Source of the DNA: Frigoribacterium sp. VKM Ac-2836
GTDB taxonomy: Bacteria > Actinomycetota > Actinomycetes > Actinomycetales > Microbacteriaceae
Direction: 5' to 3'
DNA: 64,000 nt
Assembly (NCBI RefSeq): GCF_013248995.1
Contig: NZ_JABRPK010000001.1
Span: 992,001-1,056,000, forward strand
Shown here: one piece after another, positions 15,881 through 22,062 of the stretch
Layout of the letters: every line of letters begins with the position of its first letter
Numbering within the stretch: the stretch's first letter is position 1
The notes under the pieces: model-generated
Database searches by the model: none
What the model saw: only the letters and a program-made list of their open reading frames with translations
What the model was told of the DNA's origin: nothing
Translations under genes and position numbers: made by a program

Positions 15881-16120
15881 GGTCTCTCGTGTCGTCCGGC
15901 GCCTGCCGGACGTGCAATAATGGGAAACGGACCCGTTCAAGTCCACCGATCGAGTTCACGAGTCGACACCGTCGACGCGCTCTCGATCGAGGACTTGACA
16001 TGGGTCCTCGTACTGCCCGAATTCGGCCGACGCCCAGTGCCGGTCGACGTCCCCACCGGCGCACGTGAACGCGACGATCGCGTCCGGTCCGGAACGTACC
16101 GAGAACTGAAAGGTGTTCGC
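15881..16120 (+). promoter_or_regulatory. Long leader/promoter region of sigA
   Basis: 240 bases without a convincing gene. An extended -10-like TGC-AATAAT at 15913-15921 is the best promoter candidate. A perfect TTGACA occurs at 15995-16000 but has no acceptable -10 at 17-18 bases. AAGGTG before the ATG is the ribosome site. In-frame ATG 15920 would add 67 residues of non-conserved sequence and is not used. Confidence 0.4.
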
Positions 16121-17380
16121 ATGGCTACACGCAACAAAGCGACCACGGCCCCCGACGAGGCCGTGACCGACGACACGGCCGTCGAGGCCGAGACCACGAC
16201 CCCGGTCGCCAAGAAGGCACCGGTCAAGCGGGCTCCGGCCAAGAAGGCGGCGACCAAGGCCCCCGCCAAGACGGCCGCCGCCAAGAAGGCTGCTGCGGCC
16301 GAACCGGCCGACGACGAGGTCGACCCCGAGGCCGCCGTCGATGCGGCCGTCACGGACGACGCGGACGGCGACGGAGCGAAGTCGACCCCCGAGATCCTGC
16401 CGACCGGTGCGCTCGTCATCTCCCAGGACGACGACGACGAGATGCCGGTCTACTCGACCACCATCACCGGTGCGACCGCCGACCCGGTCAAGGACTACCT
16501 AAAGCAGATCGGCAAGGTCGCCCTTCTGAACGCGGCCGAAGAGGTCGAGCTCGCCATGCGCATCGAGGCGGGTCTCTTCGCCGACGACAAACTCGCCAAC
16601 AGCACCGGCCTCAGCCGCGAGCTCGAACGTGAACTGCGGTGGGTCTCCCGCGACGGTCAGCGCGCCAAGAGCCACCTGTTGGGAGCCAACCTCCGACTCG
16701 TCGTCAGCCTCGCGAAGCGATACACCGGTCGCGGCATGCAGTTCCTCGACCTGATCCAAGAGGGCAACCTGGGCCTGATCCGTGCCGTCGAGAAATTCGA
16801 CTACACCAAGGGCTTCAAGTTCTCGACCTACGCCACGTGGTGGATCCGTCAGGCGATCACGCGGGCCATGGCCGACCAGGCCCGCACGATCCGCATCCCG
16901 GTGCACATGGTCGAGGTCATCAACAAGCTCGCGCGGGTCCAGCGGCAGATGCTGCAAGACCTCGGACGTGAACCCACGCCCGAAGAACTCTCGCGCGAAC
17001 TCGACATGACGCCCGAGAAGGTCGTCGAGGTCCAGAAGTACGGTCGCGAGCCCATCTCACTGCACACGCCCCTCGGTGAGGACGGTGACAGCGAGTTCGG
17101 TGACCTCATCGAGGACACCGAGGCGGTCGTCCCTGCCGACGCCGTCGGCTTCACGATGTTGCAGAAACAGCTCGAGTCGTTGCTCGACAGCCTCTCCGAG
17201 CGCGAGGCCGGAGTCATCCGTATGCGCTTCGGGCTCGGTGACGGCATGCCGAAGACCCTGGACCAGATCGGTGACACGTTCGGCGTGACGCGAGAGCGCA
17301 TCCGCCAGATCGAGTCCAAGACGATGGCGAAGCTCCGCCACCCGTCGCGTTCGCAGTCGCTTCGCGACTACCTCGAGTAA
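16121..17380 (+). CDS. sigA: Principal RNA polymerase sigma factor SigA/HrdB
   Basis: Directs RNA polymerase to housekeeping promoters. 419 residues. The first 60 or so are acidic/Ala with a histone-H1-like run of AKK/APAKK units, followed by an acidic stretch. Region 1.2 starts at [16 protein letters not shown]. Region 2 has [30 protein letters not shown] and the -10-recognition [14 protein letters not shown]. Region 4 has the helix-turn-helix [20 protein letters not shown] and ends SQSLRDYLE. The start ATG is preceded by AAGGTG at about 7 bases. murT begins 4 bases after the stop, so sigA and murT-gatD may be co-transcribed. Confidence 0.97.
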
Positions 17381-17384
17381 GCCC

Positions 17385-18644
17385 GTGCGATACCTGGTCC
17401 CGGTCCTGGCCGGCCGCCTCGTCCGGGCGGTCGCCCGGCTCCGGGGTGGCGGGTCCGCCTACCCGGGGCAGACCGTCCTGAAGCTCGCGCCCGACTTCCT
17501 CACCCACGTCTCGTCACAGTTCGAGCGCGGCGTCGTGTTCGTCCTGGGGTCGAACGGCAAGTCGACCACCACGATGATGCTCACCGAGACGCTCCGAGCG
17601 CATGGCCTCAAGGTATTCACCAACCCCACGGGCGCCAACCTGCCCCAGGGCATCGCCTCGGCCTTCCTCCGCGAGGTCACGCCGTTCGGTCGCGTCCGCG
17701 ACGACATCGGCGTGATCGAGGTCGACGAGGCCTTCGCCGTCGAACTGACGAAGTCCCTGCACCCGTCCACGGTGCTCATGCTCAACGTGCAGGTCGACCA
17801 GCTCTACCGGTTCTTCGAGACCGAGCGGGTCGGGACGATGATGACCGACACGGCGGCCGAAGCCACCGTGGCCGTCGTCACGAACCGCGACGACCAGCAC
17901 CTCGGCCCCTACCAGGCCGTGGGGCGGCAGACGGTGACGCGTTTCGGTGCCTCGCCCGAGGTCGTCTCGGCGTCACCCAACGGCCTGCAGAACGCCAACG
18001 ACTTCAGCCGCGAGGCCGATGCCTCCTTGTCCGCCGAGACCGAGGTGACCGCGCTCACGGGCACGGGCGCCACCATCACGGTCTCGGGGACTCCGATCGA
18101 CGTCCGGCTCCCGGCCCGTGGTCTGCACTACGCCGTCGACGCGGCAGCAGCGCTCCAGACGGCCTCGGTCGTCCTGGGGCACCCGGTCGATCCGAACGCC
18201 GTGCGACGCGCTTTCGAGAGCATGAAACCGGCTTACGGCCGCGGTGAGCGCATGTCCCTCGGCGCCGACGAGGCCGAGTTCATCATGTTCAAGAACGCGG
18301 CCAGCCTCCAGATGAACCTCGACGCGCTCCCTCAGGGCGTCGAGCAGGTCATGTTGGCCATCGACGAGGGCACGCCCGACATCTCGTGGATCTACGACAT
18401 CGACTTCTCCCATCTCGACCACGTCGACGTCCTGGCCGGCGCCAAGGCATGGCAGTTGGCCTTGCGCCTCGAGCACGAGGGCATCCCCGTCCACGTGATC
18501 GAAGAGGACATCTCGAAGGCGATCCGGCTCATGCGTGCCCTCCCGTCGTCGAAGGACAACACGAAGCACTTCGTGACCAACTACGAACAGATGATGCTGG
18601 CGCGCCGCATCCTCGGCCACCCCGACCTGGAGAAGACCGCGTGA
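17385..18644 (+). CDS. murT: MurT-like Mur ligase (lipid II isoglutaminyl synthase subunit homologue), cysteine-free
   Basis: Mur-ligase-family protein of 419 residues. In Gram-positive bacteria MurT activates the D-Glu alpha-carboxyl of lipid II with ATP so that ammonia from GatD can amidate it. Visible: P-loop GSNGKSTTT (about residue 55), VIEVDEAFAV, VVTNRDDQHL in the central domain, and the C-terminal DUF1727 domain with DISWIYDIDF, which by family supplies the Asp that completes the GatD triad. There is no Cys anywhere, so the four-Cys zinc ribbon of characterised Firmicute MurT is absent. GTG start 4 bases after sigA; the stop overlaps the gatD start (GTGA). The ligase half looks intact while its GatD partner has lost its catalytic residues, so amidation by ammonia is doubtful (see findings). 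Confidence 0.9.
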   Translation: MRYLVPVLAGRLVRAVARLRGGGSAYPGQTVLKLAPDFLTHVSSQFERGVVFVLGSNGKSTTTMMLTETLRAHGLKVFTNPTGANLPQGIASAFLREVTPFGRVRDDIGVIEVDEAFAVELTKSLHPSTVLMLNVQVDQLYRFFETERVGTMMTDTAAEATVAVVTNRDDQHLGPYQAVGRQTVTRFGASPEVVSASPNGLQNANDFSREADASLSAETEVTALTGTGATITVSGTPIDVRLPARGLHYAVDAAAALQTASVVLGHPVDPNAVRRAFESMKPAYGRGERMSLGADEAEFIMFKNAASLQMNLDALPQGVEQVMLAIDEGTPDISWIYDIDFSHLDHVDVLAGAKAWQLALRLEHEGIPVHVIEEDISKAIRLMRALPSSKDNTKHFVTNYEQMMLARRILGHPDLEKTA

Positions 18645-19393
18645 GTGACGACGTCCTCCGAATCGTCCACCTCTACCCGGAGGAACTCGGCGTGAGCGGC
18701 GACCGGGGCAACGTGACCACTCTTGCGGTGCGGGCGGGTCGAGCAGGCATAGCGAGCAGCGTCCTCGAGTACCGCATGGGTGACGAGGTGCCGACCGTGG
18801 CCGACGTGGTGGTCGTCGGACACGGCCCTCTCTCCGGGGTGCGGGCAGTCGCGACGGACGCCCGTCGACTCCGTCCGGCACTCGAATCGTTCGCCGCATC
18901 CGGTGTCCCGGTGGTGGCTGTCGGTGGCGGTCTCGAACTCCTCAGTCGCGGCGTCGAGGACGCAGACGGTGACTCGGTCGAAGGAATCGGTTTCTTCGAT
19001 GCGGTCGTCCGCCGGGGGGCACCCCGCCGGACCAACTACCTCCAGGTGACGACCGACTACCAGGGCGATGAGATCACCCTCTTCGGCTTCGAGGACCATG
19101 CCGCGCATCTCGAACTCGGCAGCGAGTCCGAGCCGTTCGGAGCCGTGGTGCACGGCGGCGGAAACGGCGACGGCCGCGAGGGTGTCCGACGGGGAGTCTC
19201 GTTCGGCACCCAGCTCAAGGGCCCGGTCCTGCCTCTCAATCCTGCTCTGACCGACCGCGTCCTTCGGGTCGCACTGAGCCGGCGGATGATCTCCTACTCG
19301 GCGGGCGAAGGGCACGCGAGACTCGACCACTATGCCGCCGCGTCGCAGAAGGTCATCGCCGACAACCTAGAACGCTCGTTCAAGGCCATGTGA
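18641..19393 (+). CDS. gatD: GatD-like class I glutamine amidotransferase homologue lacking catalytic Cys and His
   Basis: 250 residues, homologous along its length to GatD: LRIVHLYPEELGVSGDRGNV at the N-terminus, GFEDHAAHLELG in the middle and FGTQLKGPVLPLNPAL near residue 205. In active GatD the nucleophile elbow reads GxCxGxxLLG; here it is VAVGGGLELLS, with Gly at the Cys position, and the protein contains no Cys at all. The active-site His of GTxLHGPxLPxNP is Lys (QLKGPVLP). Glutamine hydrolysis should therefore be impossible. The gene is intact, in frame and coupled to murT by a 4-base overlap, so it is conserved as a partner and does not look like a decaying pseudogene. Likely role: structural subunit of MurT, or a repurposed ligase complex. 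The homology is clear; the function is inference. Confidence 0.85.
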   Translation: MSDDVLRIVHLYPEELGVSGDRGNVTTLAVRAGRAGIASSVLEYRMGDEVPTVADVVVVGHGPLSGVRAVATDARRLRPALESFAASGVPVVAVGGGLELLSRGVEDADGDSVEGIGFFDAVVRRGAPRRTNYLQVTTDYQGDEITLFGFEDHAAHLELGSESEPFGAVVHGGGNGDGREGVRRGVSFGTQLKGPVLPLNPALTDRVLRVALSRRMISYSAGEGHARLDHYAAASQKVIADNLERSFKAM

Positions 19394-19494: not shown

Positions 19495-19722
19495 TCAGTG
19501 AGCGAGCAACTTCGAGCTCTCGTCGAGCCACTCGCTGGCGGTGGGCTGCAGCTTCTCTTTGAACTTGGCGCCGTGGTGAGCGCAGAAGAGCAGTTCGCCC
19601 GTGGCCATGGTCGCCCGGATGTACGCCTGGGCCCCGCAGCTGTCGCAGCGGTCCGCGGCGCTCAACTGGTAACGGGAGCCGAGCTCGTCGACGGCGGTCT
19701 GATCGGTGGCCATCTGAGTCAT
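19495..19722 (-). CDS. Small zinc-finger-like protein (DUF7455 type)
   Basis: 75 residues with a CDSCGAQAYIRA motif (two Cys) and a CAHHGAKF motif, giving a probable CxxC...CxxH zinc site. The C-terminus is WLDESSKLLAH. The compact protein matches the actinobacterial DUF7455 family, often found between sigA and the second gyrB-like gene. Function unknown; it may bind nucleic acid or RNA polymerase. ATG 19722 is preceded by AGGAGG eight bases upstream. An ATG three codons in is also possible. The longer upstream reading frame has no support. Confidence 0.8.
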   Translation of the reverse strand: MTQMATDQTAVDELGSRYQLSAADRCDSCGAQAYIRATMATGELLFCAHHGAKFKEKLQPTASEWLDESSKLLAH

Positions 19723-19874
19723 GTGATGCTCCTCCTGACGGTGGTGCGGTGGGTGAAGACACTCATCAAAACACGCTGACGTGCGTAGCGCGTGACATCG
19801 GCCCCGGATTTCGCTCATCGCGTAGTGGAAACCGAGTGGACGAGTGTCGAGACCGCCCTGTCGGCGGCCCTCGC

Positions 19875-19880
19875 TAGTCT
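19875..19880 (+). promoter_or_regulatory. Candidate -10 of the parE promoter
   Basis: TAGTCT 68 bases before the parE ATG. The remaining 225-base intergenic region between the small zinc-finger gene and parE shows no other clear element. Confidence 0.35.
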
Positions 19881-19947
19881 GTAACACGGCCACCGCCTCC
19901 CCGCATTCCCGCTGTCCTCAGACGGCGGCGGGCCCTTCTGGAGAACA

Positions 19948-22062
19948 ATGCCCCCCACCTCGTCCGCGCCCGCCTCCGACTACTCGGCCCGGCACCTCTC
20001 GGTGCTCGAGGGCCTCGAGGCCGTGCGCAAACGCCCCGGCATGTACATCGGATCCACGGACTCCCGCGGCCTGATGCACTGCCTCTGGGAGATCATCGAC
20101 AACTCCGTGGACGAAGCCCTCGGCGGTCACGGAGACACGATCGACGTCGTGCTGCACTCCGACGACAGCGTCGAGGTGCGCGACGGTGGTCGCGGCGTGC
20201 CGGTCGACATCGAACCCAAGACGGGACTCAGCGGGGTCGAGGTCGTCTTCACCAAGCTTCATGCCGGCGGAAAGTTCGGTGGGGGTTCGTACGCGTCGTC
20301 CGGGGGACTCCACGGAGTCGGTGCGTCCGTCGTCAACGCGTTGTCGGAGCGCCTCGACGTCGAGGTCGACCGGGGTGGCAAGACCTACGCGATGTCGTTC
20401 CGTCGCGGTGAGCCCGGCACGTTCGACGACGCGGGTGCGCCCACACCGGACTCACCGTTCACCCCCTTCGTCTCGGGAAGCGTGCTCCGGGAAGTGGGCA
20501 AGACCCGACGTGGTGTCACCGGAACCCGGGTGCGCTATTGGGCCGATCGACAGATCTTCACCCGAGGTGCCTCGTTCCAGACGGACGAGCTCTCGGCCAG
20601 GGCCCGACAGACCGCGTTCCTCATCCCGGGGCTCACGCTGACCCTGCGAGACGAGCGTCCGGGCTCCTTGACCGACGGCGGGTTCCCGGTCGAGAGCACC
20701 TTCCGGTTCGACGGCGGCATCAGCGAGTACGTCGAATTCCTCGCACCCGACACCGCGGTCACCGACACCTGGCGCTTGACCGGGTCGGGCACCTACACCG
20801 AGACGGTGCCGGTGCTGACCGACGGCGGGGCCATGATCGCCACCGAACTCGAACGCGAGTGCGAAGTCGACATCGCTCTGCGCTGGGGCGCTGGGTACGA
20901 CACCGTCTTCCGCAGCTACGTGAACATCATCGCCACTCCCAAGGGCGGGTCGCACCAGGCGGGCTTCGAGACCGGCCTGTTGAAGTTCGTCCGCCAGCAG
21001 GTCGAGGCCAACGCCCGCCGTCTCAAGGTCGGCAACGACAAGATCGAGAAGGACGACGTCCTCGCCGGCCTCACCGCCGTGCTGACCGTCCGCTTGCCCG
21101 AACCTCAGTTCGAGGGACAGACGAAGGAGATCCTGGGCACGCCCGCCGTGCGCGCGATCGTGGCGAACGTCGTGGCTGCCGAGTTCGGCAACCTGTTCTC
21201 CTCGACCCGGCGAGAAGACAAGGCACAGACCGCCCTCGTGCTCGACAAGGTGGTCGCCGAGATGAAGACTCGCATCGCCGCGAGGGCACACAAAGAGACG
21301 CAGCGCCGAAAGAACGCCCTCGAGAACTCGACCCTTCCGGCGAAGCTCGTCGACTGCAGGTCGAACGACGTGGCGAGCAGCGAACTGTTCATCGTCGAGG
21401 GCGACTCCGCGCTCGGTACGGCCAAGGTCGCCCGCAACAGCGAGTTCCAGGCGCTCTTGCCGATCCGCGGCAAGATCCTGAACGTCCAGAAGGCCTCGGT
21501 CAGCGACATGCTGTCGAATCTCGAGTGCGCCTCCATCATCCAGGTGCTCGGGGCCGGATCGGGACGGACCTTCGATCTCGACGCGGCCCGCTATGGCAAG
21601 GTGATCATCATGAGCGACGCCGACGTGGACGGTGCCCACATCCGGACCTTGTTGCTCACCCTGTTCTTCCGGTACATGCGACCGATGATCGAGGCGGGTC
21701 GCGTCTTCGCCGCGGTTCCGCCGTTGCATCGCGTGGTCGTGATGCATTCGGGCAGCAAGCCCAACGAGACCATCTACACCTATTCCGAGAAAGAGCTCCA
21801 CGGTGTCCTCGCGGGGCTCAAACGCTCGAACAAGAAGTTCCAGGACCCCATCCAGCGGTACAAGGGTCTCGGTGAGATGGATGCCGAGCAACTGCGGACC
21901 ACGACGATGGAGCGTCAGAACCGCATGCTGAGGCGGGTCAAGGTCGACGACGCCGAGAACGCGACTCGCGTCTTCGAACTGCTGATGGGCAACGACGTCG
22001 CTCCGCGGAAAGAATTCATCATCGACGGTGCCGGACTCAGTCGCGACCGCATCGACGTCTGA
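19948..22062 (+). CDS. parE: Type IIA topoisomerase ATPase subunit (ParE / second GyrB)
   Basis: 704 residues. GHKL ATPase domain with IIDNSVDEALGG, the GGKFGGGSYASSGGLHGVGAS ATP lid and RKRPGMYIGST. The transducer domain is followed by TOPRIM with VEGDSALGTAK and DADVDGAHIRTL, and the C-terminus has the QRYKGLGEMDAEQL tail. The gene pairs with a convergent subunit A gene just downstream rather than with dnaA/recF, which supports topoisomerase IV (ParE) over the main gyrase. This is inference, because the subunit types are hard to separate by eye. A hairpin lies between the two genes. Confidence 0.9.
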   Translation: MPPTSSAPASDYSARHLSVLEGLEAVRKRPGMYIGSTDSRGLMHCLWEIIDNSVDEALGGHGDTIDVVLHSDDSVEVRDGGRGVPVDIEPKTGLSGVEVVFTKLHAGGKFGGGSYASSGGLHGVGASVVNALSERLDVEVDRGGKTYAMSFRRGEPGTFDDAGAPTPDSPFTPFVSGSVLREVGKTRRGVTGTRVRYWADRQIFTRGASFQTDELSARARQTAFLIPGLTLTLRDERPGSLTDGGFPVESTFRFDGGISEYVEFLAPDTAVTDTWRLTGSGTYTETVPVLTDGGAMIATELERECEVDIALRWGAGYDTVFRSYVNIIATPKGGSHQAGFETGLLKFVRQQVEANARRLKVGNDKIEKDDVLAGLTAVLTVRLPEPQFEGQTKEILGTPAVRAIVANVVAAEFGNLFSSTRREDKAQTALVLDKVVAEMKTRIAARAHKETQRRKNALENSTLPAKLVDCRSNDVASSELFIVEGDSALGTAKVARNSEFQALLPIRGKILNVQKASVSDMLSNLECASIIQVLGAGSGRTFDLDAARYGKVIIMSDADVDGAHIRTLLLTLFFRYMRPMIEAGRVFAAVPPLHRVVVMHSGSKPNETIYTYSEKELHGVLAGLKRSNKKFQDPIQRYKGLGEMDAEQLRTTTMERQNRMLRRVKVDDAENATRVFELLMGNDVAPRKEFIIDGAGLSRDRIDV

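Follow-up and report, generated by a model that had tools for sequence, protein, structure and literature searches.

The window analysed here, a stretch of 64,000 nucleotides from Frigoribacterium sp. VKM Ac-2836 (Microbacteriaceae; contig NZ_JABRPK010000001.1, positions 992,001 to 1,056,000), carries a pair of genes related to murT and gatD, the genes of the lipid II isoglutaminyl synthase. The pair is located between sigA and a small conserved reading frame, presumably DUF7455, followed by parE (Table 1). As claimed in the first-pass annotation of this DNA, both reading frames are open and share four bases, and neither product contains a single Cys. That annotation had also named a second intact pair elsewhere in the genome as an argument against its reading; a profile search of the organism's own genome yielded a single MurT_C match and no second MurT-GatD pair. 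Comparison of the sequences makes it probable that the window pair is no longer an amidotransferase but an amino-acid ligase.

Table 1. Features of the murT-gatD locus and of its borders (positions in the window)
Feature	Position	Strand	Remarks
murT-like gene	17385..18644	+	419 amino acids; Mur-ligase middle and MurT C-terminal domains; no zinc ribbon
gatD-like gene	18641..19393	+	250 amino acids; glutaminase residues lost; 4-bp overlap with murT
Gly codon replacing the GatD nucleophile Cys (S. aureus C94)	18923..18925	+	alignment with S. aureus GatD
Lys codon replacing the catalytic His (S. aureus H189)	19217..19219	+	alignment with S. aureus GatD
His codon replacing the oxyanion-hole Gly (S. 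aureus G60)	18821..18823	+	alignment with S. aureus GatD
Arg retained at the glutamine-capturing Arg site (S. aureus R128)	19025..19027	+	alignment with S. aureus GatD
P-loop Lys of GSNGKSTTT, ligase active site retained	17559..17561	+	alignment
Asn at the S. pneumoniae MurT N85 site (acceptor carboxylate in MurD/MurF), retained	17637..17639	+	alignment
MurT loop IDEGTPDISW replacing the ADGxDxSW (DNAAD) loop of working MurTs	18360..18389	+	alignment
sigA (primary sigma factor)	15920..17380	+	left border of slot
Small conserved reading frame (labelled DUF7455)	19495..19893	-	right border of slot
gyrB/parE-type topoisomerase subunit (labelled parE)	19948..22062	+	right border of slot

Alignment with GatD of Staphylococcus aureus bore out the replacement of the nucleophile by Gly and of the catalytic His by Lys that the first reading had reported. 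According to the available parts of the papers cited here and below, lipid II amidation is lost in the S. aureus GatD variants C94G and C94S, and glutaminase activity in C94A, H189A and R128A (PMC6113224, PMC6085368, PMC5871853). Among Cys-less GatDs in general, the relaxed columns of the alignment are Cys94, Gly60, Asp63, Gln66, Gln98 and His189; Arg128 is retained in 91% of the 118 Microbacteriaceae rows and in 94% of the 18 Firmicutes rows. Since the catalytic His is frequently retained in these relatives (41 loci with Gly and His, 14 with Ala and His), Cys loss is the mark of the group, and His loss, initially taken as part of it, is not. In some small genomes (1.2-1.5 Mb) MurT is retained next to a highly divergent or short GatD (L110, L112, L113, L173), as if GatD were being lost.

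The ligase site of the window MurT is retained, including the Mg-binding Glu (17718-17720) and, in PDISW, the Asp equivalent to D349 (18378-18380), so that the conservation of GSNGKSTTT and of the DISW Asp reported in the first reading holds. In alignment numbering, K58, N84, E111, D137 and the hinge R285 are retained in every Cys-less MurT row displayed; Lys302 is replaced by Gln in the alpha clade, and N303 and the D349 equivalent vary in some rows, which for the latter are mostly of the Firmicutes type. The AlphaFold model of the window MurT (predicted local distance difference test score, pLDDT, 93.7) has MurT, pseudomurein ligases and MurF as its nearest solved folds. PF08353 is matched above its cut-off and PF08245 slightly under it (23.7 of 24); the Pfam match starts at residue 55 with no further domain, and no N-terminal domain for a uridine diphosphate (UDP)-linked substrate was found. 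For the pair as a whole, NCBIfam equivalog scores fall far under their cut-offs (111 of 800 and 81 of 400 bits).

The loss of the GatD nucleophile coincides with a change in MurT. Scored by the pattern D[GS]xDxSW, which matches the S. aureus loop containing DNAAD, the loop is present in 114 of 115 Cys-bearing pairs and in none of 135 Cys-less pairs, counted after removal of duplicates and of MurTs under 330 amino acids, the related rows not being independent. The sole Cys-bearing exception (L161) has a MurT cut short by extraction; one further pair, gapped at the Cys column, also lacks the pattern. DNAAD, located between ATP and GatD, has been likened to the lysine-recognition motif D(D,N)P(N,A) of MurE, and a view cited in the same source is that it binds the stem-peptide lysine (PMC6113224). 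The change could thus reflect a new incoming amino acid, which we prefer, or a different stem residue. Absence of the zinc ribbon, which the first-pass annotation correctly noted for the window MurT and offered as a sign of repurposing, was rejected as such. The ribbon does not follow the state of the Cys (by the C..C/C..C pattern, missing from 77 and present in 38 Cys-bearing pairs; missing from 112 and present in 25 Cys-less pairs), and its absence is therefore uninformative.

Within Microbacteriaceae, 119 of 149 genomes matched the query P0002 and 30 gave no GatD match. Of 110 distinct loci read, each with both genes (not counting the S. aureus sequence used as reference or L001, a duplicate), 93 are Cys-less, with Gly, Ala, Ser, Thr or Asn instead, and 17 retain Cys and His. 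Seven further Cys-less loci of a divergent class (L301-L307) carry His at the place of the Cys; L308 was also read, L309 is a stray weak match and not a GatD, and weak matches in G083, G085, G103 and G135 were left out of the reading. In a scan of the order, 45 of 119 genomes, six of them in Microbacteriaceae, matched the GatD profile at E <= 1e-20, and all 39 loci from the other families have both Cys and His. We take these families to have group-A walls; equal Cys loss outside group B, another observation named beforehand as contrary to repurposing, was thus absent from them (0/39). Being family-wide, the Cys loss is more than chance.

A similar distribution emerges from 80 named loci of one collection scan, from which those without GatD were left out. 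Cys-less members come from Okibacterium, Cryobacterium, Rathayibacter (two), Glaciihabitans, Amnibacterium, Agromyces (two), Microcella, Curtobacterium, Pontimonas, Agreia and a few more. Cys-bearing ones come from Arthrobacter, Pseudarthrobacter, Kocuria, Bifidobacterium, Actinomyces, Janibacter, Enterococcus, Streptococcus, Fructobacillus and others, and, inside Microbacteriaceae, from Leucobacter coleopterorum. GatD of a Rhodoluna metagenome-assembled genome (MAG) is too divergent for placement at the Cys column, and none was found at the Naasia named locus. The whole-genome search behind 18 named loci gave one MurT place per family species tested, with two exceptions: Amnibacterium setariae has a second MurT (its GatD unread there) besides a MurT in two pieces, and Pontimonas has a single MurT gene in two pieces. 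Two loci labelled Acidobacteria (L143) and Cellulomonadaceae (L171) hold pairs typical of Microbacteriaceae, the latter also in the sigA slot, and their taxon labels may be wrong. In Saccharibacteria MAGs (L142, L146, L148, L152), MurT-GatD is intact and close to that of actinobacteria, and may have been taken up from the hosts of these bacteria.

Cys-less pairs occupy a particular chromosomal slot. With flanks of about 1.5 kb, sigA lies within the stretch read for 94 of 100 Cys-less pairs (87/91 of those classed as alpha or beta and 7/9 of those classed as gamma) and for none of 56 intact pairs (0/17 in the family, 0/39 in other families). It is upstream in all 16 named loci tested that have a Cys-less-type pair, L171 included, and not in Leucobacter; the slot is empty in the 10 examined genomes that carry only an intact pair. 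Within these short flanks, racemase-like genes were seen near 27 of 91 alpha/beta pairs versus none of 56 intact pairs. An ATP-grasp gene adjoins four of the seven pairs of L301-L307.

A MurT tree of 97 hand-chosen rows (quick IQ-TREE run, with supports from the Shimodaira-Hasegawa-like approximate likelihood ratio test) groups its 57 Cys-less rows into two clades with supports of 100 and 98. One, inside Actinobacteria, has 32 rows, the window MurT among them. The other, inside Firmicutes, has 25 rows from Erysipelotrichaceae, Oscillospiraceae and other MAGs, and also holds divergent Microbacteriaceae members (L109, L111, L114, L301, L303-L307). As reconstructed from this tree, GatD lost its Cys twice, independently. 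The Firmicutes-type members of the family that sit in the slot within Microbacteriaceae, together with L302, which is not in the tree, constitute the gamma class; within some genera, species differ in having an alpha, beta or gamma pair, or none. Among 57 genomes from the family to which one Erysipelotrichaceae MAG belongs, 38 have a MurT at E <= 1e-30, and the loci read comprise six Cys-less and 24 Cys-bearing ones, with 11 further places unread. The neighbourhoods of Firmicutes Cys-less pairs (20 proteins scanned) are mostly unrelated, the exceptions being an ATP-grasp gene adjoining gatD in L207 and a class-III aminotransferase gene before murT in L202 and L203. Both genes are under purifying selection, the ratio of nonsynonymous to synonymous substitution rates being 0.06-0.33 for gatD, with values from 16 of 17 pairs, and 0.04-0.26 for murT, with values from all 17.

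The slot is also used in genomes that have no murT. Among the 30 genomes without a GatD match, 27 also lack MurT by profile, their leftover hits being weak and with no GatD beside them. A search for the alanine-racemase C-terminal domain in 56 genomes pointed to the same slot, which in murT-less genomes contains a CofE-like protein of 230 amino acids, mostly an ATP-grasp protein and often a racemase-like pair; the latter also follows murT-gatD in other genomes. In this 56-genome set, the short CofE-like gene is present in 21 of 27 murT-less genomes versus none of 29 with murT (Fisher 2e-10, for genomes that are not independent). Its product scores only 26-55 bits against PF01996, and its model (pLDDT 84) gives five structure matches at E <= 0.001, all to CofE. 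In 19 of the 21 CofE-type genomes the slot was seen with its left and right borders, the stretches of G075 and G120 ending within the CofE-like gene. ATP-grasp genes occur in 19 of the 21 slots and racemase-like genes in 12; a class-III aminotransferase was found in those of G051 and G018, and MurJ, the lipid II flippase, in those of G075 and G120.

Replacement of murT by an extra Mur-ligase paralogue was also considered and rejected, as 24 of the 27 murT-less genomes have exactly five Mur_ligase_M matches; more were counted in G018 (7), G020 (6) and G089 (6), and the count is a rough guide only because the window's genome also shows five. In two genomes of one genus a CofE-like gene stands beside a gamma-type murT-gatD (L389, with sigA and parE borders seen, and L390, with borders beyond the stretch fetched). 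The cassette racemase is a tandem in several genomes (L310-L319, L329, L385, L320-L325), with a short gene made up largely of the C-terminal domain and a longer one in which this domain is reduced, as though a single racemase had turned into a heterodimer. On a different contig, the genome of the window organism carries a tandem of two full-length genes resembling alanine racemase (L326, 3134-5358), which might supply a D-amino acid.

In group-B walls, the cross-bridge is carried on the alpha-carboxyl of D-Glu, the very group that MurT activates. On balance, we favor the view that the pair joins an amino acid to the D-Glu of a wall precursor, making the group-B bridge, although substrate, added amino acid and connection with group B are our inference. 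MurT would still use ATP to activate the carboxyl group. The GatD relative, presumably incapable of glutamine hydrolysis, would remain as a structural subunit whose retained Arg may hold the amino acid. Instead of ammonia, glycine or a diamino acid would then be joined to the D-Glu alpha-carboxyl in the lipid-linked precursor, and the adduct would be the first bond of the bridge. Unrelated ligases alternate in the slot in the company of racemases, ATP-grasp proteins and sometimes MurJ, and therefore would share one job, the formation of amino-acid amide bonds on the wall precursor. On this view the sigA-parE interval holds an exchangeable cassette, of which the window pair represents one form. 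Other forms rely on a second, independently Cys-less MurT-GatD lineage or on an unrelated amide ligase of the CofE fold; an ATP-grasp ligase, perhaps for addition of a second residue, and alanine-racemase-like genes, perhaps for provision of D-amino acids, may or may not be present.

A broader proposal, which we advance tentatively and would not yet call probable, is that the make-up of this cassette in Microbacteriaceae writes the group-B bridge. Its first ligase would be filled in three ways: by a glutaminase-dead MurT-GatD evolved in Actinobacteria, by a second, independently Cys-less lineage evolved in Firmicutes and acquired, or by an unrelated amide ligase of the CofE fold. Under such a rule, a single ligase would give a one-residue bridge, addition of the ATP-grasp protein a two-residue bridge, and addition of the racemase pair a bridge with a D-diamino acid, so that a genome sequence would reveal the type of wall.

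Published wall chemistry is in part consistent with a role in the group-B bridge. Microbacteriaceae are described as having group-B walls (PMC10978784), with Gly-D-Glu and diaminobutyric acid in Rhodoluna (PMC4156110), type B2-gamma in Agromyces aureus (PMC5217419) and in Cryobacterium, and B2-beta in several genera (PMC7033078). Walls of Erysipelothrix and Holdemania filiformis are of type B1-delta (PMC4062643). B walls are thus on record for two lineages that possess Cys-less pairs. The first-pass annotation had inferred a non-glutaminase GatD, an ATP-dependent MurT ligase and an amino-acid adduct that may give the B bridge, and had suggested testing whether Cys/His loss tracks group B. The inference gained support from the slot, the DNAAD change, the two origins and the exchange with a CofE-fold ligase; the tracking, in its strict form, did not hold. 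Leucobacter species are listed as cross-link type B in the available part of PMC4804768, and L. coleopterorum has an intact-type pair; moreover, 27 of 149 family genomes have no pair, and only the six of 30 loci mentioned above are Cys-less in the family of the Erysipelotrichaceae MAG. The gatD of L. coleopterorum is split across two frames in its record (L156, 6302-7026).

Several observations weigh against the cassette and its proposed role in the B bridge. The single MurT recovered from L. coleopterorum belongs to the intact type and does not lie in the slot, the type-B listing being one for Leucobacter species in general; in the examined genomes whose sole pair is intact, the slot is likewise empty. 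If all these species have B walls, Leucobacter and the empty slots mean that the cassette cannot be the only route to them. Three draft genomes hold an intact and a Cys-less pair together, and two genomes outside the 56-genome set (G108, G047) hold the CofE-like gene together with a Cys-less gamma-type pair. Six of the 27 murT-less genomes have no CofE-like gene either: three of them (G017, G045, G107) have an empty slot, the insert in the slot is unread in G043, the slot is unreadable in G055, and in G105 it contains what appears by eye to be an amino-acid ATP-binding cassette (ABC) transporter with binding protein, permease and ATPase (L369, 860-3222). Racemase genes are absent from nine of the 21 CofE-type slots, the name of the ATP-grasp family PF14397 refers to sugar transfer, and two ATP-grasp matches, in G012 and G045, are located away from the slot. 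Lastly, given the suggestion in PMC6113224 that DNAAD binds the stem lysine, the altered loop might be due to a different residue 3 and not to a new nucleophile.

Three other explanations compete with an amino-acid ligase acting on D-Glu. The pair could join an amino acid to another carboxyl, whether of a storage peptide, of a wall glycopolymer or of a compound resembling folate or F420. ATPgrasp_ST is a family associated with sugar transfer, CofE acts on F420, and seven of the 21 genomes with the short CofE-like gene have no other F420_ligase match. The other 14, however, have a separate strong F420_ligase match, so in these the short protein is not the F420 enzyme; the occurrence of MurJ and alanine-racemase-like genes in the cassette, the action of known MurT-GatD on lipid II, and the Cys-less pairs of both B-wall lineages also speak against another carboxyl, which we regard as unlikely. 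Less likely still is continued synthesis of D-isoglutamine with free ammonia or with ammonia from another glutaminase. S. aureus MurT-GatD does use ammonia at pH 8.5, GatD then still being needed (PMC6085368), and the catalytic residues of MurT are retained. Yet the DNAAD loop is replaced in all Cys-less pairs counted, a change that the use of ammonia would not obviously call for; other members of the family have intact pairs, located away from the slot; a CofE-fold ligase, whose family joins amino acids, uses the same slot; and the alpha-carboxyl is already occupied in a B wall. A decaying or regulatory pseudo-enzyme that catalyses no ligase reaction, to which the divergent or short GatDs of small genomes (L110, L112, L113, L173) and a damaged murT in L081 would point, is very improbable in view of the purifying selection on both genes, the retained MurT active site and the way in which other ligases take the place of the pair in the slot.

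For decades, group-B peptidoglycan has served as a taxonomic marker for Microbacteriaceae. A full-text literature search, limited to open-licence papers and hence weak evidence, found no paper on the enzyme that links the bridge to D-Glu. The present finding offers candidate genes, apparently three interchangeable solutions, and a mark at the level of residues, namely the DNAAD loop and the GatD nucleophile. If amino-acid ligation is the function, an amidotransferase has been turned twice, independently, into an amino-acid ligase through loss of its glutaminase, and annotation as 'MurT/GatD' need not imply amidation of D-Glu. If the cassette rule is also true, wall type could be predicted from genome sequences.

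Among known systems, the MurT-GatD lipid II isoglutaminyl synthase, with structures from S. aureus, Streptococcus pneumoniae and Streptococcus pyogenes, is the closest: these structures are the best matches of the window pair by sequence and fold, and gene order, domains, ATP site, acceptor Asn and GatD Arg128 are the same. The window pair differs in having no nucleophile, oxyanion Gly or His, in its replaced DNAAD loop, in falling far under the equivalog cut-offs, and in a chromosomal slot distinct from that of intact pairs. In proposed chemistry and fold, it is also like MurC-MurF and the archaeal pseudomurein ligases pMurC and pMurE, the window MurT model having template modelling (TM) scores of 0.66-0.70 to the best MurF, pMurC and pMurE chains; unlike them, the window MurT has no N-terminal UDP-binding domain, has a GatD partner and presumably acts on a lipid-linked substrate. 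Finally, CofE, the F420-0:gamma-glutamyl ligase, has a fold that forms amide bonds and is unrelated to that of MurT, and it is a short relative of this enzyme that occupies the same slot in murT-less genomes.

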